A DNA stretch of 64,000 nt from Algoriphagus sp. NG3 (lineage in GTDB: Bacteria; Bacteroidota; Bacteroidia; Cytophagales; Cyclobacteriaceae). The translations under genes and the position numbers were made by a program. The DNA is taken from positions 2,542,001 through 2,606,000 of the forward strand of contig NZ_CP139421.1 of assembly GCF_034119865.1 (NCBI RefSeq). Reading direction: 5' to 3'. The notes below the pieces were generated by a model. The model had not been told where the DNA came from, made no database searches, and worked only from the letters and a program-made list of their open reading frames with translations. Positions 24,801 through 48,479 of this stretch are shown here, piece after piece; positions within the stretch are counted from its first letter, which is position 1, and every line of letters begins with the position of its first letter.

Positions 24801-24914
24801 AAAGTTGAAGTATGAAAGCTAAATGGGACGGAAATATGGAAAAGAGTCTTATATGTCTGAAGTATCAGCAACCTCTCGATTGGTGTGATTGGATAAGGGC
24901 AAGTTTACTTCTCT

Positions 24915-26087: not shown

Positions 26088-26098
26088 GTAAATCGATA

Positions 26099-27468: not shown

Positions 27469-27733
27469 GTGTTTATATTTTGATTTTAGTGCCCCCCCCC
27501 ATTAGTCGGGGCGGGCTATGGAATCTCGCATTTAGCATAATAATTCCTGTGTATGTCGTTTTCGGCATGACTACCTGTCCGGTAGGCAGGTTCAATTTCA
27601 TTTTTTAGAAAAAAGGGTGCTGTAAAACCCGGAAGTCTTACAGCCCGGCCGGGGTTTTGGATTTGATGGAGGTAACCACTCCTCCCCTTTATGAAGAAAG
27701 CTAAATCCGGCCGCCCTTTTGTGAAATACTGAT

Positions 27734-30700: not shown

Positions 30701-30952
30701 TGACAAATCCAATGGGCGGTAACCCATAAACCGCACAATAATCCTTTTGGGACCAGTCGGTACATCCAGTGAAAATCCAGCTGTCTCATCAGCAATGACA
30801 GACACCGTATCCGGATAGACAGTGAGCATGGCCCCACTGAGAGGTTCTTTGGTAGTGGCATCCACTACCTTTCCTGATATAGATACATTTTGTGCATATG
30901 CAGTCCCGATCAGACCATAGCAACACAGCAATAGGAAAAAAAAACTTCTCAT
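27734..30952 (-). CDS. SusC/RagA family TonB-dependent receptor (no STN domain)
   Basis: The 1072-residue protein has a signal peptide (IGTAYAQ), a carboxypeptidase-regulatory-like domain (about 22-105; ISGKVVDATTKEPLSGAML), the linker (VDILATGYQEIPKERASGSF), a plug with IRGRSTLGRYSQPLIVIDN and VLRDAAAASIWGARAGNGVI, and a barrel. It lacks an STN domain, so unlike the 1672-5067 protein it should not signal to FecR. Its ATG overlaps the stop of the TlpA-like gene by 4 nt (ATGA), so the two are translationally coupled. The set TlpA-like - SusC - SusD suggests uptake of a protein- or thiol-related substrate, which is inference. Confidence 0.95.
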   Translation of the reverse strand: MRSFFFLLLCCYGLIGTAYAQNVSISGKVVDATTKEPLSGAMLTVYPDTVSVIADETAGFSLDVPTGPKRIIVRFMGYRPLDLSLDNAGSSPLVLEMQSVNIDLGGVDILATGYQEIPKERASGSFVSLDEELINRRVSTNLIDRLEDVTSGLILNRSGDVGRDPIAIRGRSTLGRYSQPLIVIDNFPYDGSLDDINPNDVASITVLRDAAAASIWGARAGNGVIVITTNTGKLGQPLKVSLTANANWIEQADPYLQPSLTVNEFIDMEEQLFATGYYNSTLASASNPAVTPVVETRYQQREGLISEQEAAARIAAFRGYDLRKDLQEYLYRPQLNQQYSLGLSGGSSAHNYLVSLGYDKQRMGEVGNSNNRITLNVKNDFRFLNDRLSVQMGLYGVKTKQVDQNAGPGDLFFTSTQSMYPYARLADANGSPLELTNRFSNSFKREAESMGLLDWRYVPLEEIGRSPSVTEQDELRLNLGTDYRIVDGLHFKALYQYWQMKGSTETEYERETYFARELVNLFTEFDENGNLIRNIPAGGILDRNNSASQSHSARAMLDYSLSWANKWELTSLAGTELKSLGFQSKAFRYYGYVPDRASIQLVDYKSRFPQSNSPTATAVIPNVDGVSGGTDRFYSLFANASLSYHNRYLLTFSARKDASNLFGVDANQRSVPLWSAGVGWTLSEEDFYRWESLPYVKLRLSYGYNGNVDRSLSAYTTAQIISNNFLTQLPYAQIINPPNKELRWERIKITNLGLDMESRNGRVSGTLEFYIKDGIDLIGQTPFAPSSGIQTFMGNTASTRTKGYDLQLESRNLTGGFGWTSVLLLSGLKEEVTEYYMETSVGNLLNYSSSGQGGTYFPVVGRPLFGVYSLPWAGLNPETGSPMGRLDGEASEDYRTLVNEANMESIVYHGPARPTTFGAFRNTFSYKGISVSANISYRFGYFFKRSSVQYSSIMMGRGGHSDYSLRWQEPGDERITQVPSMPDARDSFRDTFYRNSEILVEKGGHVRLQDVRIGYSVPNKQNGFLSGFDKAEVFLYANNLGLLWTATDTDLDPDFGWAKPRKSLAIGIQLGF

Positions 30953-32361
30953 GGTGCCAATAGGTTAGGTTCAGAGATTTTCCTCATGACCAATACCGGG
31001 ATTTCCTCTTCCCGTCTGACCAAATCCAAGCCGTTCTCTTTCAGGGCTGTCCTGAGACTTTCAGGATCCGATAGCCTTACATTCAGCTTTAAATCAATAG
31101 GATAATCGATTCCTGTCCTGTCAACCAGTGGTTCAGGCTTGTTTGACCAGAACATGGCATTCATATGGTAAACAAATCCTTCCAGGGGATAATTGGTCAT
31201 CTCTACTTTACCGCCCCCTACCTTGTAGTCACGTTTTTCTCCTATGGATCTGGGGTATGGTTTTCCCTCCGCCTGTACAATGGCATAGACCATTTTCTTC
31301 TTCTTTTCTACTGAGGCTTCTATATGTGGGAAAAATCGTTTCAGATCTTCCCTCATCAGCTGGTATGCATTCACATGGGGTGGAGCGATCAGTTCATATC
31401 CAAAGACATGGGTTCCTTCCGCTTTCCACTCGTCATAATCGAGTCCCATCTTTTCAGTAATGAGCTCATCGGGGTCAAAACCTATCCTGTCTATGCGGTT
31501 CCTGCCAAAGTAATCGATCAGGTTACGCTCAGAATAGGCCAGCTGGTAATAGTAGATCAGCTCCATATTGACAATGCGGATATGGCTCATGCCCTTAAAA
31601 TTCTGGATCAGTGATCCGGTCACCCCCGGTATATAGCCTGTCATGGCAGACTGGTACCAGATATTCTTGTTTTTCAGCTGGGGGCTCCCCGAAATCAACC
31701 TATCTCCCTTGGGAAGCTGTATATCAGTATCTTCTTTCGTGCGGAAAAGTACCTTTCCATCCTCCAGCAAGGCCGTGAGATTGGCTTCGGTGAGATCTTC
31801 CTGACCTGTAATGGCTATGATTTTTCCCTCCCTGTCCAGAATCACGATATGCGGTATCACCACATGTGGAAATGATTTTCTGAGACTGGGCTCGTTCACG
31901 ATAAGAGGTAGGTCTATTCCTTCCAAAAAAGAGTATCCATCAAGTAAATCCACGATGGGTTTCTCTGGAAAAACCGTAATGGGCAGCACAGCGATCCTGT
32001 CCCCATACTTCTTCTGTATGGCATCCATCTCCGGCAGCGAGGCGATACTTGCCGTGCAGGTCGGTGCCCAGAATTCCAGAATGACATACTTGCCCCGGTA
32101 ATCATCCAGCCTGAGCTTATCAGAATCGTGGTGAAGAACCTCTGTGAACTCGATCCCCTCAGGAATCCGATCCCCGATGGACAAAGTATCGGAGCGGGTC
32201 TCCCCGCCCCGATGGGTGCCTCCTTGTTCAGTGGAGACTTGGGGACTAGACCTATGAAGAAAATCCGCCCCGGGTGAATCAGCAACTTGTGCCAGTAGTG
32301 TGCTTGTGGGAATCCCGATGGCTATCGGGACCACTAAGCAGATGAGTATTAATTTTTTCAT
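30949..32361 (-). CDS. Thioredoxin-like TlpA-family protein fused to a DUF3738-like C-terminal domain
   Basis: The 470-residue protein has a signal peptide (about 1-25), a TlpA/AhpC-type thioredoxin fold (about 65-205; YRGKYVILEFWAPTCTASI) and a C-terminal part (about 230-465) that matches the DUF3738 pattern: EPLVDRTGIDYPIDLKL, then LRTALKENGLDLVRREEEIP. The active site reads CTAS instead of CxxC, so the resolving Cys is Ser; it could form mixed disulfides but not act as a normal dithiol reductase. The gene overlaps SusC by 4 nt and leads the operon. It likely works in the periplasm on redox handling linked to what SusC/D import. Confidence 0.85.
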   Translation of the reverse strand: MKKLILICLVVPIAIGIPTSTLLAQVADSPGADFLHRSSPQVSTEQGGTHRGGETRSDTLSIGDRIPEGIEFTEVLHHDSDKLRLDDYRGKYVILEFWAPTCTASIASLPEMDAIQKKYGDRIAVLPITVFPEKPIVDLLDGYSFLEGIDLPLIVNEPSLRKSFPHVVIPHIVILDREGKIIAITGQEDLTEANLTALLEDGKVLFRTKEDTDIQLPKGDRLISGSPQLKNKNIWYQSAMTGYIPGVTGSLIQNFKGMSHIRIVNMELIYYYQLAYSERNLIDYFGRNRIDRIGFDPDELITEKMGLDYDEWKAEGTHVFGYELIAPPHVNAYQLMREDLKRFFPHIEASVEKKKKMVYAIVQAEGKPYPRSIGEKRDYKVGGGKVEMTNYPLEGFVYHMNAMFWSNKPEPLVDRTGIDYPIDLKLNVRLSDPESLRTALKENGLDLVRREEEIPVLVMRKISEPNLLAP

Positions 32362-33319
32362 GAGATTTATAATTGTTTTTTAATGGCCTCATGGAATGCC
32401 TTCAACTGAGATAGAATTAGACATAGCTATCCTGCTTCAGGCATTTCATGTGCTTTTTGTTTTAAGCTGGCGGTTCGACGGGCTCACCGACCGAAGACCG
32501 AAGACCGAAGACGGAAGTGAGTCAGTGCTCAGTCTGGAATTCTGAGTCATTTCGAACGGAGCCTGCGGAGAGAGAAATCTCAGTCACAGTCATCAGTCGC
32601 AGTGGGCAGAAGGGAAAGTCTGAAATCTGAAGTCAGAAATCTGAAAGCCTATCGACCTTCCGCCAATAATCAAACCTCTTGACTCTCGATTCTTGACTCT
32701 AACCTCTCGGCTCTAGCCTCTCCCCTCTTGCTACTTGATACCTGCTACTTGATACTTCCCACAAGACATAGTAATCCCACCTTGCCCCAACCGAGCAACC
32801 AGCAATTTTTTAACTAATAACTAAATGATGTCAGCTCTACCAGCTATTCTGAGCTTGCTGACGTGAGTGTGCAGTAACCGATCTGCTCAGGGATGTGCAC
32901 CTCCCCTTTCACGGCCTTAAAAATGAATCCTCAAATCGGATTCTTGGGCTTCAGGGGATACAGGCGATCTGATGCAATAATGCCCTGTCCCTCTGGGAAT
33001 AGATTAATAGGTAGAGAGCTTGAGTGACCGAAATAGAAAACAGAAAGAAAATCCACCCCGATTCCCGTTTCAAGCGAAGCAACATTATAGGAATAAGATG
33101 TAGTCAATTCTAGCTGCATTTAAATCAGATCTTTAGGACACTCATTGTCAATCATTAAGAACTAGCTGAAAACTACAGCTATAAATTCTCTGGTAAATGG
33201 TGTATATTACTCCTCATAAGCAGGTCAAAACTGCTTTATCCAAAAATGCAAGTAATTTATCCGGTAAAAAACCACTCTCTGTGGTATCTTACCACAAGAC
33301 AAATTTTTATATTTCAATC
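32362..33319. other. Gene-free stretch at the left edge of the accessory island
   Basis: It contains short tandem motifs (gaccgaagaccgaagaccgaag; tctgaagtcagaaatctgaa) and low-complexity ctc-rich text, as in other decayed spacers of this window. A 62-residue minus-strand frame (32931-33119) has no recognisable features. From about 33100 on, composition changes to the AT-rich island style. Confidence 0.5.
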
Positions 33320-33769
33320 ATGAGCGAAGTAAAAAAAGATAGAGATTTTATCCATCATGGGAATAATGTGAAAAGATTCAGAGAAATGATGGGAATCAAA
33401 CAATATGCATTGGCTGAGGACTGCGAATGGAGCCAACAACAGATGTCTAAATTGGAGAATTCTGAGATCATAGAGGATGAGCTTTTAGAAAAAATCGCAG
33501 AAAAATTAGGCGTTACTGCTGAATTCATCAAAAATTTTGATCCGGACAAAGCCATATGTAATATTCAAACCCATATAACTTACAACGATCACGCTGTAAA
33601 TTCAAGTCAACATAATAGACCGCACATTGAACATCATCCAGTAGATCAAATGGTCAAGCTTCTAGAAAAATATCTTCAGGATGATCAGAAAAAGACAGCC
33701 CAAATAGAATCACTGACTAAGACGGTGATGGATTTGGCTGAAGAGGTTAAGAGGATGAAAGGGAAGTGA
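33320..33769 (+). CDS. XRE-family helix-turn-helix regulator
   Basis: I start at 33320 (MSEVKKDRDF); a longer frame reaches back to 33197 but its extra residues are not protein-like. The 149-residue protein has a Cro/CI-type HTH at about 16-72 (VKRFREMMGIKQYALAEDC, SQQQMSKLENSEI, LGVTAEFIKNF), a His/Asn-rich linker, and a C-terminal coiled coil (about 107-146; MVKLLEKYLQDDQKKTAQIE). Proteins of this form are common at the start of Bacteroidota accessory regions. It could control the DUF3892 gene and the methyltransferase operon that follow, perhaps through the palindrome at 33845-33862. Confidence 0.88.
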   Translation: MSEVKKDRDFIHHGNNVKRFREMMGIKQYALAEDCEWSQQQMSKLENSEIIEDELLEKIAEKLGVTAEFIKNFDPDKAICNIQTHITYNDHAVNSSQHNRPHIEHHPVDQMVKLLEKYLQDDQKKTAQIESLTKTVMDLAEEVKRMKGK

Positions 33770-33840
33770 ATTCCTAGGTATTACTGATCATTTTCTCCTG
33801 AAATTTTAGAAATAAGCCATTAAATGCCCTGTTTTGGTCA

Positions 33841-33866
33841 AAAAATACCTTGTACAGGGTATTTTT
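33841..33866. promoter_or_regulatory. Long palindrome AAAAATACCttgtacagGGTATTTTT
   Basis: The 26-bp near-perfect palindrome has the core ATACCTTGTACAGGGTAT (33845-33862), with a T-run on the right. It can act as an intrinsic terminator after the XRE gene or as an operator before the DUF3892 gene. The same 18-bp core occurs, once as a perfect palindrome, in the dispersed repeat at 50891-50908 and 63586-63603. Confidence 0.65.
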
Positions 33867-33914
33867 TTTGTTCTGAGGATTACCTTACTTGGGATAAACC
33901 AAAATAACAAAACT

Positions 33915-34202
33915 ATGGCTAGTTCCATTGAAATACTATGCATCAACAAAGATGATCGACAAAACCCGCAGGAGAGAATCACTCATATAGGAGGAAAAAA
34001 TTCTCCAACTGAAAGATGGAAACTGGGTTTGGATGAAGCAATCAGGTCAATAGAAAATGGGAAATACTCATTTTATGTCAACCAAGGGGGGAGTAGAGTT
34101 GATGTGATCGTGTCCAAAAGCAAATCAGGCAGAAAATACCTAAAAACCAGCAATGACGGAGAGGAACCAAATAATCTACTCAGTTTGCCTGAATGCCCCT
34201 AA
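33915..34202 (+). CDS. DUF3892 domain protein
   Basis: I choose the start at 33915 (MASSIEILCINKDDRQN). The 95-residue protein is almost entirely a DUF3892 domain (CINKDDRQNPQERITHIGG, then AIRSIENGKYSFYVN). The family is small, widespread and of unknown function, often found near mobile or defence genes. It sits between the XRE regulator and the methyltransferase operon, 139 nt before the latter. Confidence 0.85.
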   Translation: MASSIEILCINKDDRQNPQERITHIGGKNSPTERWKLGLDEAIRSIENGKYSFYVNQGGSRVDVIVSKSKSGRKYLKTSNDGEEPNNLLSLPECP

Positions 34203-34341
34203 CTACTCAACAGGCTATATGGAAATAAGAGAATAGTTTAATTTTGAGACTATTTATATCATTTAGGACGCTATTCCATGCCATGGCCTAGAACTTGTAT
34301 CAAGGGTTTTTTAGGTTAGATTTAAGAGTATTTTTGAAAAT

Positions 34342-35400
34342 ATGAAAAAATTAAAAGCTGTTGATTTCTTCTGTTCCGGTGGCGGGATGAGCTACGGAAT
34401 ACAACAATCTGGAATTCAAATCCTTGCCGGAATTGATTTTGATGACTCATGCCGGGAAACTTATGAAGCCAATATTGAGGGTGCCGAGTTTATTCACGCT
34501 GATGTATTCGATTTATCCGAAAATGACCTTGAAGAAAGGCTTTCACTAAAAAAAAATGATGATGATCTGATCTTGATTGGCTGCAGTCCATGTCAATTTT
34601 GGAGTATTATTAATACCGATAAATCAAAATCTGCTAAATCAAAGAATCTATTGGTCGAGTTTTCTCGCTTCGTAAAATATTTTCGCCCGGGCTACGTAGT
34701 TGTTGAAAATGTTCCTGGAGTATTACGAAGGAAAGACGAAAGTGGTTTAACTGAATTCATAGAATGGTTAAAAACCAATGGATATGAAAATCCACATTTC
34801 AAGGTTCATAATGTAAATGATTTTGGCGTTCCCCAGAATAGAAAACGTTTCACATTAATTGCTTCGAGGATATCAGAGAAAGAAGTTAAGCCTTTGGAGG
34901 CATTGGGGCCAAAATCTGTAGTAAGAGATGTTTTAGGAGAATCAAAAGGTTTTCAGAAAATTGAAGCGGGTCATAAGGATGATTCTGGCTTTCTTCATTC
35001 AGTTCCTAAAATAAGCGAGGTCAACAAAAGGAGATTAAAAAAAGTCAGTAAAAACGGCGGAAACAGATCAGGTTTTTCCAATGATCCAGAACTACAACTA
35101 AAATGCTTTATTGGTAAAGATAATTCCTTCAAAGATACATTTGGTCGTCTATGGTGGGATAGACCAGCACCAACAATCACAACAAAATTCTTGAGTATTT
35201 CAAATGGCCGGTTTGTCCATCCAGAAGAAGATCGCGCTCTTTCTATCAGGGAGGGTGCTGCGTTACAGTCATTTCCTTTAACTTATCATTTTAAAGGTAC
35301 AAGCCTCACTAAAATAGCGCGTATGATTGGAAATGCAGTGCCTCCAAAATATGCAAGTGCTATCGGAAAGGCAATAATTCAAAATCACAAATGGACTTAA
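34342..35400 (+). CDS. DNA (cytosine-5) methyltransferase
   Basis: The 352-residue enzyme has the C5-methyltransferase motifs in order: motif I (VDFFCSGGGMSYG), motif IV with catalytic Cys84 (IGCSPCQFWS), motif VI (VVVENVPGVLRR), motif VIII (FGVPQNRKRFTLIAS), a target-recognition region (about 200-285) and motif X (ARMIGNAVPPKYA). It looks complete and active. It lies at the head of a tight three-gene operon, overlapping the next gene by 10 nt. No restriction endonuclease is recognisable in the operon, so the partner role must lie in the double-ATPase and receiver-like proteins. The target sequence cannot be read off. Confidence 0.95.
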   Translation: MKKLKAVDFFCSGGGMSYGIQQSGIQILAGIDFDDSCRETYEANIEGAEFIHADVFDLSENDLEERLSLKKNDDDLILIGCSPCQFWSIINTDKSKSAKSKNLLVEFSRFVKYFRPGYVVVENVPGVLRRKDESGLTEFIEWLKTNGYENPHFKVHNVNDFGVPQNRKRFTLIASRISEKEVKPLEALGPKSVVRDVLGESKGFQKIEAGHKDDSGFLHSVPKISEVNKRRLKKVSKNGGNRSGFSNDPELQLKCFIGKDNSFKDTFGRLWWDRPAPTITTKFLSISNGRFVHPEEDRALSIREGAALQSFPLTYHFKGTSLTKIARMIGNAVPPKYASAIGKAIIQNHKWT

Positions 35401-37496
35401 ATTTTTCAATATCTCCGCGTATACTTTCGCATCTCGGAGAGGATCTTATAAAAAATGAAAGCATTGCATTGTTTGAGCTGATAAAAAACTCATATGATGC
35501 TTGTTCAAAATATTGTATTGTTGATTTCCATTTTCAAAATGGGAAGCTGATTAAACTTACGATTGAGGATGATGGATTTGGAATGAGTAAAGAGATCATT
35601 GAAACAGCATGGCTAGTTATTGGGACAGATAATAAGCACAAAAAAATTGAACGTAATGAGTGTGGAAGAATTCCTCTAGGTGAAAAAGGGATAGGAAGAT
35701 TAAGCATTCATAAATTAGGAAATAGCATTAAATTAATTTCTAAAACGGCTGCAGACAAAGAAATTGAACTATCTATAGACTGGAATAACCTCTATACCGC
35801 TAAAGAAATTAATGATTTCTACATCAATTTAATTGTTAATGATAACCCTACAACATTTATAAAATCAACAGGGACAAAAATAATAATTGAAGATTTAAGG
35901 TCACATTGGGATAGAAGACAACTTCGTGAAGTTTATAGAAATATCACCTCTCTGAATAGCCCATTTTCTGACGGAAATGATTCATTTCATGTTTTGGTTG
36001 AAAGTAACACCAAAGTTTTTGAAGGGTTGCCAAATTTCGAAGATATAAAAAACAATGCTTTATATTTTGGGAGTTGCAAAATGAGAGGAGGGGAAATAGT
36101 AGAATTTAAATATGAATTTAAGCCTTGGAGTAATCTTGACAAAGTCGATTCTGGAAGAATTATCAAACTAGAAGATTTACGCACAGAAGATAAAATTATT
36201 AAGAAATGGAATTCGGAAATCAGAAAATTTGAAGACATTGACCTAAATGAAAGTAAAGTAGGCACAATAGAATTTGACATTATAATTTTCGATACTGATG
36301 CACAAATTTTTAGCTACATTAATACTGAAAAATCTGCCTTAAAAACTTACTTAAGAGAAAATGGAGGCGTAAGAGTGTATAGGGATGGGGTGAGAGTTTA
36401 CAATTATGGTGAAAGGGACAATGATTGGCTAGGTATTGACTTAAAAAGAGTCCATAGAGTAGGCGGAAATGTTAGTAATAATATAGTTATTGGATCAGTA
36501 AAAATCAATAGAGACTCTAGCTCTGGCCTTATCGAAAAAACAAATAGAGAGGGATTTATAGAGAATGAACACTATTTTGACTTTGTTGAAGCTATTAACT
36601 ATGCCCTTTCATTAATTGTAAGAGAGAGAAATATAGATAAAAGTTTATTAACAACTTTATATAAAAAACATCGTTCTGTTGAGCCAGTCCTATCAGACTT
36701 AAATGAAGTAATGAGCCTTGTTGAGAATAAAGTTGATAATAGCGAAGGTGTTAAGGATGAAATTTTGAAATATTTATATCGTGTTAATGATCAATATAAG
36801 GAAGTCAAGGAGGTACTTATAAAAAGTGCAAATGCAGGTCTCAATCTTGGAATTGTTATACATGAATTAGATAAATTGATTGCTGAACTTACTGGATGTA
36901 TTGAAAGAAATGATAAAGACAAGGCAATTAGAATTTCTTTATCGCTGGAGAAAATTATTCGGGGGTATTCGGCAATGCTTAAAAAATCAGATATTCAACT
37001 ACAACCTTTAAGTGAAATCATTTCAATTGCTTTAGATAATTATGAATTTAGATTTTTAGATCACTCAGTAAATATTATTTCCAATTGGAAAGACTCAGAC
37101 CTTAAAGCTTATTTGGCAAAAGCAGAATCAATTTCAGTTCTTACAAATTTACTGGATAATGCTATCTTTTGGCTAAGCTATGCTAAGAAATCGAAAAGAT
37201 ATATATCTATCTACATTACCAATGAAATTGAAGGATATAATTCGATTATAGTATCAGATAACGGCCCTGGATTCAGTTTGCCGTTAGACGTGGCTGTAGA
37301 GCCATTTCAAACTGGAAAGCCACATAATATTGGTTCTGGGTTGGGCCTACATGTAGCTAAAGAAATGATGGTAGCGATGAAAGGTAAATTATTATTAATA
37401 TCTGATGAAAATGAGATTGATTTCCCAAAGCCTATTAAGGATAATAATGTCACTAAAGCAATTGTTGCTCTCTGTTTTCCAAAAGAAAAAAAATAA
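35391..37496 (+). CDS. Protein with two GHKL ATPase domains: MORC/HSP90-like plus histidine-kinase-like
   Basis: The 701-residue protein starts with a GHKL ATPase of MORC/HSP90 type: N-box LFELIKNSYDA (27-37), EDDGFGM (59-65), GEKGIGRLS (97-105). A middle region follows (about 200-440). The C-terminal half resembles a histidine kinase: helix with GIVIHELDKLI (candidate phospho-His491) and a HATPase_c domain (LTNLLDNAIFWL near 583, DNGPGF near 623, GSGLGLHVAKEMM near 648). GHKL/MORC-like ATPases in restriction-modification operons are described by Iyer, Abhiman and Aravind; the extra kinase half is notable. It overlaps the methyltransferase by 10 nt and is followed 9 nt later by a receiver-like gene, its likely phospho-partner. 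Confidence 0.88.
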   Translation: MDLNFSISPRILSHLGEDLIKNESIALFELIKNSYDACSKYCIVDFHFQNGKLIKLTIEDDGFGMSKEIIETAWLVIGTDNKHKKIERNECGRIPLGEKGIGRLSIHKLGNSIKLISKTAADKEIELSIDWNNLYTAKEINDFYINLIVNDNPTTFIKSTGTKIIIEDLRSHWDRRQLREVYRNITSLNSPFSDGNDSFHVLVESNTKVFEGLPNFEDIKNNALYFGSCKMRGGEIVEFKYEFKPWSNLDKVDSGRIIKLEDLRTEDKIIKKWNSEIRKFEDIDLNESKVGTIEFDIIIFDTDAQIFSYINTEKSALKTYLRENGGVRVYRDGVRVYNYGERDNDWLGIDLKRVHRVGGNVSNNIVIGSVKINRDSSSGLIEKTNREGFIENEHYFDFVEAINYALSLIVRERNIDKSLLTTLYKKHRSVEPVLSDLNEVMSLVENKVDNSEGVKDEILKYLYRVNDQYKEVKEVLIKSANAGLNLGIVIHELDKLIAELTGCIERNDKDKAIRISLSLEKIIRGYSAMLKKSDIQLQPLSEIISIALDNYEFRFLDHSVNIISNWKDSDLKAYLAKAESISVLTNLLDNAIFWLSYAKKSKRYISIYITNEIEGYNSIIVSDNGPGFSLPLDVAVEPFQTGKPHNIGSGLGLHVAKEMMVAMKGKLLLISDENEIDFPKPIKDNNVTKAIVALCFPKEKK

Positions 37497-37505
37497 TAGA
37501 AAAGT

Positions 37506-38822
37506 ATGTTACATGAGTTTATAACTAGCGCATTAATTATCGATGACTCTGAAAGCGAGACTACGAATCTAATAGATTATCTTGAAGAAAAAGACATATG
37601 GGTTAAACATTACACTCCCAAACTTCTTGATATTTTCACAAAAAATAAAAAACCGTTCAATAATCGAAAATTAATTTTTCTTGATTTATATCTCGAAAAT
37701 AAAAGTTCTTTAGAAGATAATATTTCAAAAATTAGAGGGTACTTTAAAAATATACTTGGCAATGAATTTGGAACATATGGAATTGTTTTATGGACAAAAC
37801 ACATTGAAGAATTCGATGAATTTAAGAAAAGAATATACAAGACAGCAAATAAGTATTCTTCCCCACTTTTTGTAATTCCCTTGGAAAAGAATGGATATTT
37901 AAACAAAGGAAGCTTTGAAGGTATACTTGAAGATTTAGAAGACAAATTACTTAAAGACGTTTCTTCCTCATTTTTTGTAGAATGGAATAAGGCAGTAAAA
38001 AAAGGATCTGACAACACAATAACTACTTTATACAATTTATTTGAATCAAATGAGAAAAAAGATAAAAATTTAGAAGCTATTCTATATTTGCTAGCCTTAA
38101 ATTTTACAGGTATACCAATAAATAGTACATCAAGCTATAATGTTCAAAAAGACTTGGTTAAATCATTAATGGACACACTTCAATTTGAAATATCTAACTC
38201 TTATAAAGAAATAATTAACCTATTTAAAGTTGCAAAAAAACTAGAATTCAACGAAGTAGTTACAGAAAAAAATAAAATATTCTCAAAGCTTAATTCATTA
38301 TTATTACTAGATTTTCAAAATCTTTCTCAAGACTCCCCTATACCTGGAAATATATATGAGATTTCTGACCAAACTTCTCCTCTTTATATAAAGGAAATTA
38401 CTTATAAAAAAAAGACTGAAGATCTAGATACTCATACAACTTTTAAAGATTTAAAAAAACGTAGAGTTTGCATAGAAATTACTCCTCCTTGTGATTTCGC
38501 TCTAAATAAAAAACAATCCCTATCTAGAATTGTAGGAGGAATTCAAATGGATTACGATAAGGATATTTTGAAAGGGAACAATAGTCCTTTTAAAACAGAT
38601 AATTATTACACATTTTTATATCCTATTAATGTAAATGGTTTTACAGAACCTCAAATGATAGTTTTTGATTTTTATAGATTTCAAACAGTAAATGAAAAAG
38701 AATTGAAAGATAATTCAAAGTATAAGATAATAATAAAAGCGAAGGACAAACTTTTTGCAGATGTTCTTCAGAAGTTCTCATCGCATACCGCAAGATTGGG
38801 AATCGCTGCTTTATATCCATAA
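37506..38822 (+). CDS. Response-regulator-like protein with large unknown C-terminal region
   Basis: The 438-residue protein begins with a receiver-like domain: acidic pair Asp13/Asp14 (ALIIDDSESE), phosphoacceptor candidate Asp60 (LIFLDLYLEN), Thr97 (GIVLWTKH). About residues 120-320 are helical and unassigned. The last part has a Cys-containing motif VCIEITPPCDFALNKKQ with SRIVGGIQMDYD, a pattern I associate with proteins next to such ATPases but cannot name. There is no obvious DNA-binding or nuclease motif. Being 9 nt downstream of the double-GHKL gene, it probably receives a phosphate from it and acts as output or switch of the module. Confidence 0.8.
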   Translation: MLHEFITSALIIDDSESETTNLIDYLEEKDIWVKHYTPKLLDIFTKNKKPFNNRKLIFLDLYLENKSSLEDNISKIRGYFKNILGNEFGTYGIVLWTKHIEEFDEFKKRIYKTANKYSSPLFVIPLEKNGYLNKGSFEGILEDLEDKLLKDVSSSFFVEWNKAVKKGSDNTITTLYNLFESNEKKDKNLEAILYLLALNFTGIPINSTSSYNVQKDLVKSLMDTLQFEISNSYKEIINLFKVAKKLEFNEVVTEKNKIFSKLNSLLLLDFQNLSQDSPIPGNIYEISDQTSPLYIKEITYKKKTEDLDTHTTFKDLKKRRVCIEITPPCDFALNKKQSLSRIVGGIQMDYDKDILKGNNSPFKTDNYYTFLYPINVNGFTEPQMIVFDFYRFQTVNEKELKDNSKYKIIIKAKDKLFADVLQKFSSHTARLGIAALYP

Positions 38823-38973: not shown

Positions 38974-39549
38974 TTATTTTATTCTTTTCAGCTTTTCATC
39001 AATTATTTTTATTTCACTCATCACCTGTTGAACTGTAGATTTAAGTGTCACGGGATCCAATGGTTGTTGTACATGGGCCGCCGTATGAGCAATTTCACCT
39101 CTGCTTGTTCCAAAAGAAGTAATTGTGTTTAGCCAAGTTACGTCGATTTCTGAATACTCAAAACCTATTGGGAGTAAAATTGATAAGATATTATCTTCTT
39201 TAATACCATGATTATGTCTTAGAGAATAAATAAATGTCGAAAGTGCATTATTAACTCTTGTCTCGATATTCTGCTCAGTGATTTTAGATTCATGAAAAGA
39301 GACTAAGGAAAGTAAAACATTACTTTTAGTTCTGTGGTTCTTCCACTTATTAAAAGCATCTTTGGCCTTCGATTCAGAAGTTTCTTCAAAATAAGCCTCC
39401 ACTTCAGCATGTACTAAAAGTAAATATGCACGTATGTCATCTTGTTCCTTCTTGGTATAGTTACCTGTTGGGTTTGTAGCGGGCAAATACAATAATTCAA
39501 TAGCCTTGACCCGATTCTCAAGCTTAATATATCTACGAGAATTAGCCAT
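38974..39549 (-). CDS. HEPN-domain protein of the MAE_28990/MAE_18760 type
   Basis: The 191-residue helical protein carries the RNase-type HEPN motif R-x4-H in TSRGEIAHTAAH (about 150-160) after a helix containing ITSFG. The layout and C-terminal helices fit the RiboL-PSP-HEPN group. HEPN proteins with this motif are often toxins that cut RNA. It begins 5 nt after the DUF262 gene, so the two form one operon; in other genomes DUF262 and this HEPN type are also neighbours. A defence or toxin role is likely but not proven. Confidence 0.8.
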   Translation of the reverse strand: MANSRRYIKLENRVKAIELLYLPATNPTGNYTKKEQDDIRAYLLLVHAEVEAYFEETSESKAKDAFNKWKNHRTKSNVLLSLVSFHESKITEQNIETRVNNALSTFIYSLRHNHGIKEDNILSILLPIGFEYSEIDVTWLNTITSFGTSRGEIAHTAAHVQQPLDPVTLKSTVQQVMSEIKIIDEKLKRIK

Positions 39550-39554
39550 GGGAC

Positions 39555-40733
39555 CTATTGATTGAATTTTGGAATATTTATTGTAAACTCAGTGATTTGA
39601 TCAAGTGCATTGCCCCATTCTGAGTATCGTTTATGTGTAGGTTGTAAATTCTTTGTAGATGTTTCAAATGAATTTAGAAACTCGACATCATGGACACATA
39701 ATTCAACAAACCTTTGTCTAATTGTTTCACCATGTTCACGCAAAGCTTCTCGAGTAGATAAGTTTGAAAAATAGTAAACCATTATATCGAATACAGCACG
39801 ATTGAACCTTCCTTGATAAGATCCATCTTTCCATTTTCGAAAAGCATTATCTCCCCATATTTCATAGGTAAAGTCAATGGCATTATTGAGTTCTTGTGCG
39901 TCTGCTTGTATTTGATCTCTATTTACAGACCATGAATTGTTTAAAATTTGAACCGTAGTATCAAAGAATTTTTTAAGATTGCCAGTATAGTCCTCTGCAT
40001 AATATTTAAATGCAAAATATCTAATAACCAATTCTACATCTCGCATTCTATAATCTGGCTTCTTAATGTTTAATATTCTCTTAATTTGCTCACTTTCGAC
40101 GGAAAAATCATCTGTAAAGTCGATAAATTTGCCAGGATGTAAAGCCTGTCTCAACTCTTGAGGTGCTAGTGGTAAGCTGCCAGTATTAAGCCTTAAAAAC
40201 ACATTGTATAAAAACTCTTCATTTGGCCAGTTCTTGATTACAATAGTTCGTATTGACTGGTTTTCTATTGCAGTTGCAAAGTCTTCCAAGTCTGGACTAT
40301 CATCTAGATCAACGAACGATAGATTATTTAAAATAGCTAATGAATCCAAGCTGGAAAGTTTTAATCTTGGGAATTCATTATCATTAACTTGAGAAAAGAA
40401 CTGTCTAATACTTATTAGTCTTTGCTTACCATCAATCACAATATATGTTCCTTTTTTCTCTTTCCTTTCGGCTAAAATGATCTGTGGGATTGGTAACCCT
40501 AATATAAGCGATTCAATAAATCGACTTTTTCTTGGTCCTGTCCAGGCCTCACGTCTCTGAAACTTGGGATCAAGATCAATATTTCCTTTATTCATTTGGT
40601 TAACAATAGTATCTGTTGTCCAGTCCGTTCCCCAAATTACTGCTTGACGGAGGTCTTCAAGTTTAACGACTACATCATCTTCATTTTCTTGACCTGTATT
40701 GTCCATTTCATCGAATATATTCATTTGATTCAT
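39555..40733 (-). CDS. DUF262 (GmrSD N-terminal-like, ParB-fold) protein
   Basis: The 392-residue protein has the DUF262 core in the N-terminal half: DLDPKFQRREAWTGPRKSR, FIESLILGLPIPQIIL, and the nucleotide-binding signature YIVIDGKQRLISIRQFF (about 95-111). The C-terminal part is helical (about 210-390) and has no HNH DUF1524 domain, which would be present in GmrS-D fusions; the nuclease function may instead come from the HEPN partner encoded 5 nt downstream. DUF262 proteins hydrolyse NTPs and sense modified DNA in type IV restriction; here its partner suggests RNA cleavage. Confidence 0.88.
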   Translation of the reverse strand: MNQMNIFDEMDNTGQENEDDVVVKLEDLRQAVIWGTDWTTDTIVNQMNKGNIDLDPKFQRREAWTGPRKSRFIESLILGLPIPQIILAERKEKKGTYIVIDGKQRLISIRQFFSQVNDNEFPRLKLSSLDSLAILNNLSFVDLDDSPDLEDFATAIENQSIRTIVIKNWPNEEFLYNVFLRLNTGSLPLAPQELRQALHPGKFIDFTDDFSVESEQIKRILNIKKPDYRMRDVELVIRYFAFKYYAEDYTGNLKKFFDTTVQILNNSWSVNRDQIQADAQELNNAIDFTYEIWGDNAFRKWKDGSYQGRFNRAVFDIMVYYFSNLSTREALREHGETIRQRFVELCVHDVEFLNSFETSTKNLQPTHKRYSEWGNALDQITEFTINIPKFNQ

Positions 40734-40937
40734 TTTAGTTAGTATGTTTTTTAACCTTGATTAGCTTCAATTTCTGGAGTTGTATGTTTCAATCAAAGTG
40801 AAAGAAATAATAAAGTATGCTTCTGAGGAACTCTCTATATTTGGAGGAATCTACGCTTTATCTTTTAAGTGGCTCAATTTGTAATTCAATCATTTTATAC
40901 AGTTAGACGAAAGAAATGTAAGGAATTTTCAGCTGAT

Positions 40938-41762
40938 TCAATACCATTTAAAGTATTTCAAAGAAGGTGGACTGCTTTTACTTCCTTTTGTTTGGTTACA
41001 ACTCCTACATAACAGTTGTAAATTAGACACATCATTTAGCCCTCCTTCGGCTAGAGACACCATATGGTCATAATGCCGTTCGGCATTGGAATGAAGTAAG
41101 CTTGAAATATCTTTCAAGCAAATAGTACACTTCCCTTTATCCCTAAAGAAAACAGCATCCTTTGCCCATTGTGGTATGCGGGCTCTTTTAAGTGTTCCCT
41201 TAGAAGTGAAAAGCGACCCAATATCAATATCAGAATCCTCATCGAGATACAATTCCAGATTTCCTGCTACTAGATAATTAAAATCACTCATTAACCTCCT
41301 ATTGTTAAAAATAACATAAAAAACCTCATCAGCTATTCGATTAACCACTTCCTCAAAATAGCCAGTGATGAGCAACTCTTCATAATATTCCTCCAAATCG
41401 GAAAATTCGGGATCTGATTTACCATCTAAAAACTCCTCAAAAGACCAATCCAATTCAAACACAGAAAAGGCACTGTCAATGTAAGGACGAAACTTGAAGT
41501 ACGAATTTAACTTACAGCATTTCCAATCATACTCATCATAAGTCGTCATGTCCTCATGAAGAAAATCACCGATCACAGATCTGCAAAAATGATGAAGAGC
41601 ACTTTCTTTCTGATAAGCAAGAAAAACACTACTGCCCATATATTCCCGAAAATTGGATAAAAAGCCAATTGTATCTGCGTCACCAGTCAATATGTTTGAA
41701 ATGATATTTGAATAGTAGTAAGTACTAAAGAAATTGTTCTCGAAAATCTCCGAATTTTTCAT
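40938..41762 (-). CDS. HNH endonuclease with acidic helical N-terminal domain
   Basis: The 274-residue protein has a C-terminal HNH/ββα-metal domain (about 205-265): FFRDKGKCTICLKDI, RHYDHMVSLAEGG, NLQLLCRSCNQTKGSK, with the paired CxxC zinc ligands and the His-Asn-His catalytic set. The first 200 residues are acidic, helix-rich and unrecognised; they could be a sensing domain. Its ATG shares one base with the stop codon of the upstream cyclase-like gene (TGATG), so translation is coupled. This pairing suggests that the nuclease is the effector of a nucleotide signal made by its neighbour, which is inference. Confidence 0.85.
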   Translation of the reverse strand: MKNSEIFENNFFSTYYYSNIISNILTGDADTIGFLSNFREYMGSSVFLAYQKESALHHFCRSVIGDFLHEDMTTYDEYDWKCCKLNSYFKFRPYIDSAFSVFELDWSFEEFLDGKSDPEFSDLEEYYEELLITGYFEEVVNRIADEVFYVIFNNRRLMSDFNYLVAGNLELYLDEDSDIDIGSLFTSKGTLKRARIPQWAKDAVFFRDKGKCTICLKDISSLLHSNAERHYDHMVSLAEGGLNDVSNLQLLCRSCNQTKGSKSSPPSLKYFKWY

Positions 41763-42511
41763 CAGATAGAATTTTTGAAACCCCTTAAAAATTCAATTGT
41801 GTTTTTTAACTTTTCCTCCGTCCTAGGGTCTAAAGGACCTTTGTTATAGTTTTCAAAGTTATCTCTTATTCCTTTGCTCCAATTATTAAACGCTTCATCA
41901 TTTAAACCACCTTTAACAAGAATGAATGCAAATTCCTTTACCTTCCACACCCCATTCTTATAGGGAATGAAATATGGAATACACCATGGTTCTAGAAATG
42001 TTTCAGGATTTTCACCAATACCTTCTAGAAAGCCAATAATTGAATGATCTACAACTGTTCCTGCCCAATTTTGCGATTCTGCTTTTTCGTAAGCTGAGAT
42101 AAGCCCCCTGCCAAATACAGAGTTAATATTATAATTCCTGCCCTTACCATTCAAATATGAGAAGTCAACTGCTTCTAATTCTCCATGTACGATTGCTCCT
42201 CTGGCAGGGAAAAAATAACCATTTGTTCTCCAGTTGAAAATATAAGAAACCTCAAGAATTTCTTTCAAAGAATCGACACTGTCATCTTCTGTCCAGAATA
42301 TGATTGTATCCGAGAAATTGATGCAATTAATATTACTTTCTTCTAAGTCAGCAATTATACCGTGTGGGGCATCAGTTGTTTTTTCTTTGGCAATGGCCTG
42401 CTCAATTTCTCTAAAAATATTTCCCATCCCTCTCTTCTGAGCCAGGATATCATTTTTTTCAATGAATTGCCGAAAGCCGAGGTAGTCAAAATATGCGATG
42501 AATTTCTTCAT
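41762..42511 (-). CDS. Class III nucleotidyl-cyclase-like protein (Pycsar PycC-like candidate)
   Basis: The 249-residue protein reads like a stand-alone class III cyclase homology domain: first metal Asp9 in AYFDYLGFRQF, second Asp68 in INFSDTIIFW, the GxxxG strand RGAIVHGEL (104-112), and the late motif VFGRGLISAYEKAE (132-145). This order (DxLGF - FSD - RG...GE - G.G...AYE) is that of short prokaryotic cyclases including Pycsar uridylate/cytidylate cyclases. The Asn-Arg transition-state pair of purine cyclases is not obvious. No membrane or sensor domain is fused. It is translationally coupled to the HNH nuclease gene. Alternative: a degenerate cyclase fold without activity. Confidence 0.65.
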   Translation of the reverse strand: MKKFIAYFDYLGFRQFIEKNDILAQKRGMGNIFREIEQAIAKEKTTDAPHGIIADLEESNINCINFSDTIIFWTEDDSVDSLKEILEVSYIFNWRTNGYFFPARGAIVHGELEAVDFSYLNGKGRNYNINSVFGRGLISAYEKAESQNWAGTVVDHSIIGFLEGIGENPETFLEPWCIPYFIPYKNGVWKVKEFAFILVKGGLNDEAFNNWSKGIRDNFENYNKGPLDPRTEEKLKNTIEFLRGFKNSI

Positions 42512-42587
42512 AATATTTAAAGTTTAGAAAGCCTAATTGATATTAGAAAAATTAACTAATCAATTCTTATGAGATCATATAAAACCA

Positions 42588-43523
42588 CTACAGGGGTATT
42601 TGCCTCACCAATTTCGAAAACGTATCCCTGAATTTAATAGAATAAGTGACCAGCCAATCCAGTGCCTCATTTACTTTTTGAGGATCTGAAAAGTCAGTTG
42701 GATGTAACAAAACGATTACTTTGTCCCTGTTCATTGGATTTGGATTCCAATCCAATACATGCCCAATTGACGCTTCTATTTCCTCTTTCTTGCTTTCCAA
42801 ATATGGAAGCATTGTATCGGCGATCTTATTGCTTATATATACTCTGACTCCTACGGTATTCACATCTGTATTACATGTGTTTGAGATATGGATGTAGGAT
42901 TTGCCCAAGCTGATATCGAACCAATATTGAGGACGCGGAGTCTGAAGGGAGGGAATCTTCTTGGTTTGGGCTAGTTTATCCTTAAACCTATTCCAAAAGT
43001 CAAATTGAAATTTTCTATTTTCAGATAGCTCATCTGATGATTTTGATCTTGCTGCCTGCCTTACTGCTTGGTTGGGTCTACTGATCACATTAAACCTAAG
43101 TGCCGGATTACTTTGATCAATCTGCCATAGTTCTACTTGCACTCCGAAAATTGAAATTTCGTCAGAGGTATGGTCATTGAGCCAGTCTAGCGCTTTCTTG
43201 TGTTCTTCTGTAAAGTCAGTAGCAATCCATATAATAGTGGAGGCATCCAAGACCGAAGCATAGGTAATTGCTTTTCCGAGATGATCATGATTAGTCTTTT
43301 CAAGCTGGTTCTCAATGATCACATATTTATCTGTCCCGGTATCTTTTGCCAAAATATCAGCTGCATATGGTCCACAACGAACCTCCATATTCTCTACCTC
43401 AAGCTCTAATCCTATAGCTTCATTCAATGCATGGATATTAGTAGCAAGCCAAGGCGTAAAATCCCTTGCTTCGCTTTGCCATTTTATTCGTGCCGCTACA
43501 GTTTTTAGTATTCCTAGTTCCAT
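42588..43523 (-). CDS. DUF4268 protein with PD-(D/E)xK-like N-terminal domain
   Basis: The 311-residue protein has an N-terminal nuclease-like fold with Asp56 (CGPYAADILAKD) and ExQ at 71-73 (VIIENQLEKTNHDHLGKAI), the pattern of DNA-repair/restriction-type PD-(D/E)xK domains, then a C-terminal DUF4268 domain (FWNRFKDKL, ISNKIADTMLPYLESKK). Such proteins are frequent in defence islands but their role is unknown; they may be nuclease relatives lacking activity. It lies 76 nt upstream of the cyclase-like gene on the same strand, so it may belong to the same transcript. Confidence 0.82.
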   Translation of the reverse strand: MELGILKTVAARIKWQSEARDFTPWLATNIHALNEAIGLELEVENMEVRCGPYAADILAKDTGTDKYVIIENQLEKTNHDHLGKAITYASVLDASTIIWIATDFTEEHKKALDWLNDHTSDEISIFGVQVELWQIDQSNPALRFNVISRPNQAVRQAARSKSSDELSENRKFQFDFWNRFKDKLAQTKKIPSLQTPRPQYWFDISLGKSYIHISNTCNTDVNTVGVRVYISNKIADTMLPYLESKKEEIEASIGHVLDWNPNPMNRDKVIVLLHPTDFSDPQKVNEALDWLVTYSIKFRDTFSKLVRQIPL

Positions 43524-44199: not shown

Positions 44200-44237
44200 T
44201 TTAAAACCAGCCCTTAAACTGAACTGGTTCTTTCCTA
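44200..44237. repeat. 38-bp direct repeat, copy 2
   Basis: Same orientation as 38855-38891 and nearly identical. It is the 3' end of the DUF3883 fragment at 44201-44460 and includes its stop codon. Confidence 0.85.
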
Positions 44238-44460
44238 CAAAAAGAATCGAAATCCCCATTTACAGTAAATAATTTAGGTGATTTAGCAAAGTCAAATACC
44301 CGGTAGAGGTGGTAACTATCATTATTTACTTTAGAAAACTGATACTCATTGGAAGAAAAAAAGATCGGAGTTTCTTTAGCCAGTTTTGTTGTCCTTACCT
44401 CAATAAACTTGTCGGTTCCATTTGGATTGTGGGAAAGGATATCAAAGCATGAATATGTCT
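44201..44460 (-). pseudogene. C-terminal fragment of a DUF3883 (NO VEIN-type) protein
   Basis: Reading the minus strand gives an open frame of about 85 residues without start codon: CFDILSHNPNGTDKFIEVRT, then TPIFFSSNEYQFSK, YHLYRVFDFAKSPKLF and PVQFKGWF before the stop. This is the typical end of a DUF3883 domain (FIEVKTT... NE... YxLYRVF). Such domains occur at the end of large helicase/nuclease proteins in defence islands. The rest has been lost, with the junction near the end of the acetyltransferase gene. Confidence 0.8.
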
Positions 44461-45131: not shown

Positions 45132-45385
45132 ATATGGCTTAAACCCTTTAACTCAAAAATACAATATCTCACTTTACTATTATCAACCATCTTAATTACT
45201 ACATCAGCTGGCAAATGCGGGGGATTACTGGCCAAAATAATTTGTACAATCTGTCCATCAACAAGTTTTATGACCTTGTCGGATTTGATTTCACCAACAT
45301 GAAACCTCAGTGGAAAAAACATTAGTTCCTCTAACTCTTTGGCCGAATAATTCCACGGATGTTTTAATATCGGATTTTTATCCAT
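45128..45385 (-). CDS. Small hypothetical protein in the restriction-modification operon (85 aa)
   Basis: The protein has a beta-rich pattern (MFFPLRFHVGEIKSDKVIKL, VDGQIVQIILASNPPHLPAD) and no membrane segment. Family not recognised. It starts 27 nt after the restriction-enzyme stop codon and overlaps the acetyltransferase gene by 4 nt (ATGA), so it is translated with them. Confidence 0.65.
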   Translation of the reverse strand: MDKNPILKHPWNYSAKELEELMFFPLRFHVGEIKSDKVIKLVDGQIVQIILASNPPHLPADVVIKMVDNSKVRYCIFELKGLSHI

Positions 45386-45412
45386 TTCAACTATAATTTA
45401 GTAATTGAACAA

Positions 45413-46618
45413 TCATTGTTTCACTCTAACCAAACTGATAAAATCCTCCAAACAAATCAGTTCCTTCTGCTGAACTTCAGAATAAGTCGGAGAAATGGAT
45501 TTAGGAATTACCAATTGGACAGCCTGAGCTCTCATCTCATCCGTCTGATTTTTACTGATAGCCGGTTCGAGGGTTACTAGGTGCTTTGGGTTTATCCGAT
45601 CTGCTTCCGGAATTATCTGCCTCCAGCGATCTTTGGCAGTAGTTTTTAGACCCAGCATGGTTAACCGTTCCGTTGGAAAAGTGGTGTCAAAATATTCTGC
45701 TATTCCAGGAAAAAGAAAGTCAGGTTTGTTATTTCGTTCGGTCTTGACCCCTTTTGAATAATTGATATCATTTTGATCAAATATGACGGCAAGGTGATTT
45801 TCAAAAGCATATCCTGCCCTGGATTTTCTTTTGTTCTGAACACTTAAAGAAAAGCTGATAAAATCGTCCACATCCAGACCATCCTGTCCAAAACCAGTTC
45901 TTAGTTTCTCTTGGACCGAATGCTTTTCAAAAGTTCTGAATAACTTCTCTTCCCACATCATCCATGAAATTAAAGCTTCATCAGGTGCCTCTATCGCTGA
46001 TACTTGATCTTTAAAAGTGTTCCGGGCATACTCACTAAATATGAATGTTGAGGGAAGCTTTACTCCAAATCTACCTAGCATATCATTTAGATAATCCGGT
46101 TCCTCTTCCTCAATCTCCAGCCCTAATGAAGAAACTATTAATTTCCCGGCAAAGCCTAGATCAGATTTCTGGTCTCCATATTCTTTGACCACAAATTTCC
46201 TTTCAGATTCTTCTAATCCAAAAAGCCATAATAGCTGACTTTCATGGGTAGAGTCCTTCGGGCAGATGATCACCAATAATTTATCATCTGTGGTTTTTGC
46301 TATAATAACCATGTCCCCTTCCTGAGCCATTCGCATAGGATTATTGGTACTATAATACAATCGAAACTCTGTCCTCAGAGGATGGTTTTCTCTAGCATCA
46401 TACCAAGTCAAATGACCAGATTCAGATTCTTCTTTATTTTCCTCATCTGTCAGATATAAAAAATCAGTATCAAAGGTAATTCTATTAGGCCCAAAGATTT
46501 CCCGGAAACCAACTACCCCATTGAATTCATGTTGATTTGAGATTTCGGGCTGAGCTTCCACTGCGCTTAATCGCTTTGCTCCTGCAGCTACAAAAAATTT
46601 AGACAGCGGATTTGACAT
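45413..46618 (-). CDS. EcoRII-type type II restriction endonuclease
   Basis: The 401-residue enzyme has an N-terminal effector domain (about 1-200; [19 protein letters not shown]) and a C-terminal catalytic domain of EcoRII-C type: [65 protein letters not shown]. The [10 protein letters not shown] block includes the catalytic Lys of the PD-(D/E)xK fold. EcoRII recognises CCWGG and needs two sites; the same target is probable here but not shown. Its start overlaps the methyltransferase end by 20 nt. Confidence 0.92.
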
Positions 46619-47825
46619 GCTTTAATTCTTCTATTTTAAAAGTTTCAATAATTGATCTTCCAACATCCTCCATCAATGGCTGAACTACAGAATTGCCAAA
46701 TTGCCTGTAGGCCTGTGTATCGGAAACATAGTTAGGTATTACAAATGCTTCTGGATATCCCTGAAGTCTGGCACACTCTCTGGGAGTAAGACGACGGGGA
46801 TTTTTGCCCTCCTGAGGAATCAGGATTTCCGAACCGTCCTTATAGTATCTGGCACTGAGAGTCCTAGACACCCCGTCAAAATTCACCAAGCCATAGCCAA
46901 AGCCATTGCCTGCTGCTTTGTGCTTCTGGGCATACTTTTGCAGGTAATCCCAAAGTTTATCGGATAAGGTGTATTTCTCATCCACATCCTTTTCCAAAAT
47001 ATCCTCGACAACCATGGGGGGATTATCCGGCATTTCCGGAAATGAGAAATTCTCCTTCCCGTGAAAAACTTTCTTATCAAAACCAACGATCACAATACGC
47101 TCTCTATGCTGTGGCGCATAATACTTCCCATCCAATACCCGATAGTGGATATTATAACCCAGCTCTCTCAGCGTCTCAGAAATAATCTTAAAGGTCTTTC
47201 CCTTGTCATGGGAAACGAGATTCTTCACATTTTCCAGAAGGAACGCTTTTGGTCTTTTATGCTTTAGAATCCGGGCTATATCAAAAAACAATGTCCCTTG
47301 AGTTTCATCCAAGAAGCCGTGCGTTCTTCCCAAAGAATTCTTCTTTGATACTCCTGCAATAGAAAATGGCTGGCAAGGGAACCCTCCTACCAAAATATCG
47401 TGGTCTGGGATTTCCTTCTCGTCTATTTTGGTAATGTCCCCAAAAGGCACTTCCCCAAAGTTGGCTTCGTAAGTCTTTTGGGCGTAATGATTCCACTCGC
47501 TGGTGAATACACATTTGCCACCTAAATTCTGAAATGCCATTCTGAACCCTCCTATTCCCGCAAAGAGATCAATAAATTTGAAAGTTGGGTTTTCAGGCGG
47601 AGGGAAAGGAATATCCCATTTGATAGGTAAATAACCCTGATACCAAGGCTCGGCTACTGAATCCAAAACTGATTCTGCATATTCACTAGCGCTATGCTGA
47701 TAATACTTAGAAGCCCCGTTTTCGGCTCCATGTAAAAAGTGGGTCAAATAGGCCAATCCGGATTGTTCTGGCTTTTTGATGTCTATCTTTAACTTCTTTT
47801 TTAATTCCGAATACTTAACTGGCAT
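46599..47825 (-). CDS. DNA (cytosine-5) methyltransferase of the Dcm/M.EcoRII type
   Basis: The 408-residue enzyme carries an N-terminal extension (about 1-85) and then the C5-methyltransferase motifs: [18 protein letters not shown] (I), [12 protein letters not shown] with the catalytic Cys (IV, near 155), LLENVKNLV (VI), [13 protein letters not shown] (VIII) and [12 protein letters not shown] (X). It is paired with the EcoRII-type endonuclease encoded downstream (20-nt overlap), so it protects the same site, probably by methylating the inner cytosine of CCWGG. It is distinct from the enzyme at 34342-35400. Confidence 0.95.
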
Positions 47826-48479
47826 TTTGCGCTACTTCTGTGAATACTATAAATCGATCAAATATATTGAATTCTCTTTAGGGAATAGCACTTGTTTCAT
47901 CAGTTCACTAAGAAAAGACACAAGTTGTCGTTTCTCAAACATTTTAAAAGACCACGCTATGAATAGTCATTTAAGTAGCTGCTGGGTGGGATAGTAACAC
48001 TCAATAACTAAAAAATCTGTTTAAGCACAGGAGAATCAAGACTTTATATAGGGTGTTTTCTGGTTGAAATACGAAAATTACCCACATTTTAATGCGAATA
48101 GGAAAGGAATAATTAGGCGTTGGAGATGGACGGTGGCGAGATGACTGATTAGTCGCTGTTTAGGATTATTGTTGCTCCTGTCCTGCGCTGGGCTCAATAG
48201 ATCAAGTATCAAGAAGAAAATAATAATTAAAACACAAGTAGCCTGTCCAGATGGATGGAATAGTTATGAGTTAGTAGCACTAGTATGGGTGATCACGCTG
48301 GAGCGGATATAAAACCTTCACACGTTTAAGCACAAAAGTTAATGAATTTGTGAATTACAACTATCTCATAATCAAACAACAATCAAGTGCCACCCGTGTA
48401 CAAGAGTTTCAAGAATATGATGAAACGAACTTAGTAAAAGTTATTTGAATCAAATCTTACTGCATTTTTTTTTAGTATT
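47826..48479. other. Gene-free spacer
   Basis: This 650-bp AT-rich stretch lies upstream of the restriction-modification operon. I see no credible gene, hairpin repeat or clear promoter in it. Confidence 0.4.

Follow-up and report, generated by a model that had tools for sequence, protein, structure and literature searches.

Two overlapping genes in the 64 000-nucleotide stretch of Algoriphagus sp. NG3 DNA analysed here (the window) may form a two-gene defence cassette, with a class III cyclase-fold protein as the gate of an HNH DNA-cutting effector, a reading to which a probability of about 0.37 was assigned. Its computed basis was the cyclase fold, the metal aspartates, the HNH residues and the overlap of the genes, together with the retention of the block in a second species and its location in a defence island.

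Arrangement of the two genes

The upstream gene (41762-42511, minus strand) was called as an ORF of 249 aa and encodes a class III nucleotidyl-cyclase-fold protein of an unassigned subfamily. The downstream gene (40938-41762, minus strand), also an ORF call, encodes an HNH nuclease of 274 aa (PF01844/PF14279). At the junction, ...ATCTGATGAAAA, the stop codon TGA and the start codon ATG share one base (TGATG, 41760-41764, minus strand), which is consistent with translational coupling of the two genes. No dedicated promoter stood out beyond chance, 8 promoter-like sites being counted against a shuffled mean of 10.6.

Upstream, a gene for a PDC-S11 candidate defence protein with DUF4268 (42588-43523, minus strand; Pfam, PADLOC) ends 76 bases before the cyclase-fold gene; it was treated as a neighbour only, and no membership of the pair is claimed for it. 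EcoRII-C and C5-methylase genes lie farther upstream (Pfam, PADLOC). Directly downstream of the pair and on the same strand (38974-40733), a gene for a GmrSD_N protein (PADLOC NsnA, E 4.8e-74) begins 204 bases past the HNH gene and is followed by one for a RiboL-PSP HEPN protein. Given these GmrSD_N, HEPN, PDC-S11, EcoRII-C and C5-methylase neighbours, the defence-island setting is sound. The original prediction had named both this setting and the stop/start overlap, and both were borne out.

The cyclase-fold protein

An AlphaFold model of the 249-aa protein was obtained with a pLDDT of 95.4, and its fold matches were to the class III nucleotidyl cyclase catalytic domain. Judged from this model, membership of a class III cyclase-fold subfamily is real, as had been proposed. 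The structure route resolved the fold where the Pfam, PADLOC, NCBIfam and PDB sequence routes gave nothing: no Pfam family was assigned (the PF00211 cut-off was not reached and DUF2652 was also unmatched), no PADLOC family matched at E<=1, NCBIfam did not reveal the fold, and neither did single-sequence or profile searches of the PDB. When the profile of the closer family alignment (A3) was compared by hhalign with the canonical class III cyclase encoded in this genome, only the first motif was aligned (probability 1.4, E 0.036). Matches in PHROGs were weak and to uncharacterised families only (phrog_23933, E 0.0083); a distant relative of the cyclase (L002) matched a PHROGs family of no known function at E 1e-16.

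Relatives of the 249-aa protein numbered 147 at E<=0.001. A wider profile search, for which an alignment of seven divergent family members served as query, gave 735 proteins, and the UniRef name 'Guanylate cyclase domain-containing' was carried by 6 among the 120 matches listed. In an alignment of 48 superfamily members, PF00211 was the most frequent of the weak Pfam matches (9/48 at E<=0.1, best 0.004), and a sister-subfamily profile built without the window protein recovered the window cyclase gene at E 5.1e-16. In one genome (G204; L029, 1120-2289) a cyclase-like region lies within a longer ORF of 389 aa, possibly a fusion.

The class III motifs and motif order that had been predicted (FDYLGF, INFSD, RGAIVHGE and FGRGLISAYEKAE) are all present in the protein. 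Residues D9, G12, N65-F66-S67-D68-T69, R104-G105 and G134 were invariant among 36 aligned sequences including that of the window, and D9, G12, F13, S67, D68 and G134 were kept in 48/48 sequences at superfamily level, so the motifs are not a product of chance. The putative metal aspartates, D9 and D68, assigned by motif order and not by superposition, were found in 48/48 superfamily sequences and in all 61 sequences of A3. Position 104 was K or R in 48/48 and 61/61, and position 185 was K in 47/48 superfamily sequences, with R in the remaining one.

The canonical class III motif is G..VN.A..R, and the class III cyclase encoded in this genome (L086) shows it too. In a gap-free sequence register, not a superposition, the class III Asn position corresponds to residue 138, which was I or V in 48/48 and 61/61, and the Arg position to residue 142, which was Arg in 0/48 and 1/61. 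Residue 143 was K or R in 49/61 members of A3, so that a shift of the register by one residue could restore a basic residue at the Arg position. On this register the active site of the family seems to depart from the textbook class III one and, because the transition-state positions are filled by other residues, cyclase activity of the 249-aa protein itself is something that we infer. Between the window and A. oliviformis the cyclase gene had a dN/dS of 0.049 at a dS of 1.9, near saturation.

The HNH protein

The partner had been described as an HNH nuclease with an acidic N-terminal domain, and this description held. The HNH assignment exceeded the Pfam cut-off (PF01844, 39.9 bits versus 21.4), the domain being located at the C terminus (about residues 193-274) with two CxxC pairs. 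Residues D232, H233, N247, C252, C255, N256 and K259 are conserved, and D232, H233, N247 and N256 were invariant among 44 aligned sequences. The N-terminal domain (residues about 1-190) contains 36 D/E versus 13 K/R and is almost wholly helical in the predicted model (pLDDT 87.4 for the full protein). Searches of Pfam, PADLOC and NCBIfam returned nuclease domains only, and no cyclic-nucleotide-binding domain was recognised. Fold matches in the PDB were confined to the HNH part, the search having effectively covered residues 193-274; within that coverage of the fold search, and outside the HNH part by Pfam, no SAVED domain was matched. The dN/dS of the HNH gene was 0.110 at a dS of 0.9 (window versus A. 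oliviformis).

A hotspot shared by three species

A block containing both genes (window 40883-42512, minus strand) is common to A. oliviformis, with 79.6% identity over 1637 columns; it begins one base ahead of the start codon of the cyclase gene and extends to 55 bases past the HNH stop codon. The two genes overlap by four bases in A. oliviformis, where PDC-S36 precedes them and a C5 methylase follows, as against PDC-S11 and GmrSD/HEPN in the window. The pair stayed together while its neighbours turned over.

In the 20 kb downstream of the A. oliviformis pair, stretches matched window 22147-33759, the majority in the same order. The 246 bases just before the A. oliviformis cyclase gene, the 3' end of the PDC-S36 gene, matched window 44203-44448; a PDC-S36 (NOV_C) remnant is present there (44204-44452), comprising the last 83 residues and 77% identical to the gene adjoining the A. 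oliviformis cyclase. For the 20 kb farther upstream, no nucleotide match within the window was found. That the A. oliviformis block lies between unrelated flanks, and hence had moved as a unit, was considered and dropped, since the flank matches place it in the same hotspot; a joint move of the two genes to a new site is therefore unsupported.

In A. boritolerans the hotspot carries an intact cyclase gene (83%) with no HNH gene beside it, between flanks that matched window 32998-38822 and 45140-47873 (72-74%), and full-length HNH was not found in that genome. The hotspot (window 22147-47873) is common to the three species, and the cargo between the matching flanks differs. The GmrSD_N and HEPN genes of the window (38974-40733) were absent from the compared A. 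boritolerans stretch. The set conserved there from window 34342-38822 consists of a C5 methylase, a 701-aa protein with a weak PADLOC REase_II match and a 438-aa neighbour of no convincing family.

Distribution of the two families

Among 72 Algoriphagus genomes, the cyclase was found in 3, full-length HNH in 2 and the HNH part only in 2 further; both genomes with full-length HNH, the window's own and that of A. oliviformis, are among the 3 with the cyclase. An HNH gene stood next to the cyclase at 2 of the 20 first-round cyclase loci, a sample that includes one distant relative and the window's own locus, the latter being one of the two positives. For 3 of 49 HNH clusters, the longest contig was equal in size to that of a cyclase among the 120 listed, the matching being done by eye and many contigs being short; both genes probably lie on one metagenome contig, 14320 bases long (P0002 and P0124). 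In 395 phylum-wide genomes, HNH matches besides the window's own covered mainly the nuclease part, with one weak N-terminal match (G342).

HNH relatives were found at 8 loci in viral contigs, 7 of them matching over most of the protein, and no cyclase-profile match at E<=1 was obtained at these 8 loci; no cyclase-family member was confirmed in viral contigs. On plasmids, HNH relatives were found in 6 records, with no cyclase matched beside them (annotated regions read for 3/6 records), and no cyclase-family member was found. The viral relatives L066-L071 were read as lacking a cyclase, and neighbours of L070 and L071 as DNA methylases. Two Rhizobium plasmid relatives (L062 and L063) are apparently interrupted near the HNH part.

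The coupled pair named in the original prediction was thus recovered in the window and in A. oliviformis, and the co-occurrence expected of other genomes failed to appear as a general pairing, at 2/20 cyclase loci (the window's own included) and 3/49 HNH clusters. The HNH protein is a lineage-restricted nuclease partner of the cyclase-fold subfamily, and in neither family is pairing the usual state.

A single conserved partner for the cyclase family was sought among its neighbours and not found; the neighbours vary. At several loci they were candidate defence or nuclease genes, namely GIY-YIG, just above cut-off, with Nmad2 (L006), DruF/DruL-like genes (L007), PDC-S54 (L011), PDC-S54 with GmrSD (L012), PDC-M62A/B with an ATPase plus HNH (L013) and GIY-YIG (L016). 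At L010, L014, L015 and L017-L020, where one or two neighbours were scanned, matches were weak, of other kinds or absent, and included HEPN_Apea and nSTAND3, both below cut-off, TPR, helicase and M48 peptidase; the neighbourhoods of L008 and L009 were judged by eye only. A gene for a TIR protein (PADLOC TIR-TM, 250.8 bits) comes 79 bases after that of the distant relative (L002/L085). These neighbourhoods, taken as raw counts, suggest that the cyclase-family gene is defence-linked and exchangeable, but nucleases abound in defence islands generally.

At L085 (6143-8663) the TIR gene is followed by a short, apparently membrane-bound protein, near an apparent recombinase and integrase. A relative 57% identical to the window cyclase (L005, 3806-8034) was read as lying between apparent sufC/sufD and sufS genes; suf being a housekeeping operon, this placement is odd for a defence gene. 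Another relative (L083) also lies apparently among housekeeping genes.

Proposed mechanism and alternatives

In the cassette, the HNH protein would be the DNA-cutting effector and the cyclase-fold protein would gate it, most likely through a nucleotide that is made or bound. The cyclase-fold protein would be catalytically active and make a (cyclic) nucleotide, the HNH protein would sense this product or the cyclase itself through its acidic, helical N-terminal domain, and phage infection would be the trigger. As the HNH family also exists without the cyclase, that N-terminal domain probably serves independently in sensing or targeting, and the cyclase would be a lineage-specific added control over the HNH protein.

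The cassette was weighed with three rivals, the figures for which overlap in part with its own, and was ranked first, ahead in turn of independent cargo, a nucleotide-binding protein that is not a cyclase, and Panoptes-like restraint. Counted against it were the A. boritolerans cyclase without HNH, the 18/20 cyclase loci without HNH, the viral and plasmid HNH relatives without a cyclase match, the position of the A. oliviformis block in the same hotspot and the apparent suf-operon placement of L005. Much of this is shared by the view that the two genes are independent hotspot cargo that forms a compact operon in one lineage, with the HNH protein an autonomous nuclease that carries a sensor domain and the cyclase a solo or accessory gene beside many systems. 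Such an arrangement is quite possible, if short of even odds, and was held only slightly less probable than the cassette: the two families mostly occur apart, a hotspot with the cyclase and no HNH exists in A. boritolerans, both pairs of named species occupy one hotspot, and the cyclase has varied partners (PDC-M62A/B, PDC-S54, GmrSD, DruF/DruL, GIY-YIG and PDC-S36) besides the apparent suf operon. The overlap of the genes in both species and the keeping of the block while the neighbours changed argue the other way, as does the presence of the cyclase in both genus genomes with full-length HNH (n=2, one being the window's own).

Also counted against the cassette were the lack of a recognised cyclic-nucleotide-binding or SAVED domain in the HNH protein, the N-terminal fold of which was barely covered, and the transition-state Asn and Arg, which by sequence register are apparently not conserved. 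The latter would fit a pseudo-enzyme that binds nucleotides, or an enzyme with a different chemistry, serving to scaffold or sense nucleotides and giving no cyclic signal; the I/V at the Asn position (48/48 and 61/61), the near absence of Arg at the Arg position (0/48 and 1/61) and the lack of a Pfam match fit this. It was nevertheless held unlikely; on the other side, the metal aspartates and the basic residue at 104 are kept throughout (48/48 and 61/61), the dN/dS of the cyclase gene is low, and the register, made by sequence and not by superposition, leaves K/R at residue 143 in 49/61. Least probable of the readings was an antitoxin-like or Panoptes-like one, in which the cyclase-fold protein constitutively restrains the HNH protein by product or contact and phage depletion of product or protein releases the nuclease. 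Repression of 2TM-beta by the mCpol product (PMC12657230) offers a precedent, and the regulator gene lies upstream of and overlaps the nuclease gene; yet mCpol is Cas10-related, and the viral and plasmid loci found tolerate HNH relatives with no cyclase alongside, so the HNH family does not need such restraint.

Beyond the cassette itself, a hitherto unassigned Bacteroidota subfamily with the class III cyclase fold and an atypical active site might be an exchangeable regulator of defence nucleases, here controlling an HNH DNase via a nucleotide product; this wider proposal is a doubtful one, ranking below the pseudo-enzyme. If true, it would add to class III cyclase defence a branch with nuclease effectors, separate from Pycsar, CBASS and Panoptes. 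Should the pair work as the cassette supposes, the control that class III cyclases exert in phage defence would reach the destruction of DNA besides membrane and NAD effectors, and hundreds of mostly unnamed proteins (147 close, 735 wider) would gain a testable function. If not, the cyclase subfamily remains conserved and often defence-linked, with an active site seemingly off the textbook.

Relation to known systems

PADLOC v2 includes Pycsar cyclase models, and Pycsar cyclases produce cCMP or cUMP when phage infects. Of the Pycsar features tested, a curated-model match and the effector type were both lacking in the window pair, with no PADLOC match at E<=1 and only HNH domains recognised in the partner. 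The predicted likeness to PycC held for the fold and the metal aspartates, and an assignment to Pycsar is not supported. No report of a class III cyclase and HNH defence pair was found in the titles and abstract openings of the open-licence papers searched.

In Pycsar, an enzyme of class III fold that has two metal aspartates is paired with a PycTM or PycTIR effector (PMC11224242). The window pair resembles Pycsar in the class III cyclase fold, the two putative metal aspartates, the small soluble single-domain enzyme, the defence setting and the adjacent putative effector. It differs in having an HNH partner with no recognised cyclic-nucleotide-binding domain and no TM or TIR match, in the spacing of the aspartates (59 residues versus 44 in EaPycC and AnPycC; PMC11224242) and in that the pair is not conserved across the window cyclase family.

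Compared with class III adenylyl/guanylyl cyclases (PF00211), the window protein falls below Pfam thresholds and has extra C-terminal helices, and the transition-state Asn/Arg positions appear not to be kept in its family (sequence register). Uncharacterised bacterial class III-like proteins, DUF2652 and related, have been recognised, many of them from Bacteroidetes, and E/K and H/R residues are listed for them (PMC4886424). The window protein is like these soluble proteins but has no Pfam DUF2652 match.

In contrast to CBASS enzymes, the window enzyme is modelled as a class III cyclase fold and not a CD-NTase, and it has no PADLOC match; unlike Cap5 (HNH-SAVED), its partner has the HNH domain at the C terminus and an acidic helical domain at the N terminus. 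The diadenylate cyclase reported with DefensePredictor belongs to a CBASS-like system and not to the window family (PMC13092281). With Panoptes, the window pair shares the plan of a two-gene module of nucleotide cyclase and effector, whereas mCpol (PMC12657230) is related to Cas10 and has a di-glycine di-aspartate site, and the effector that its product represses, 2TM-beta, is a membrane protein.
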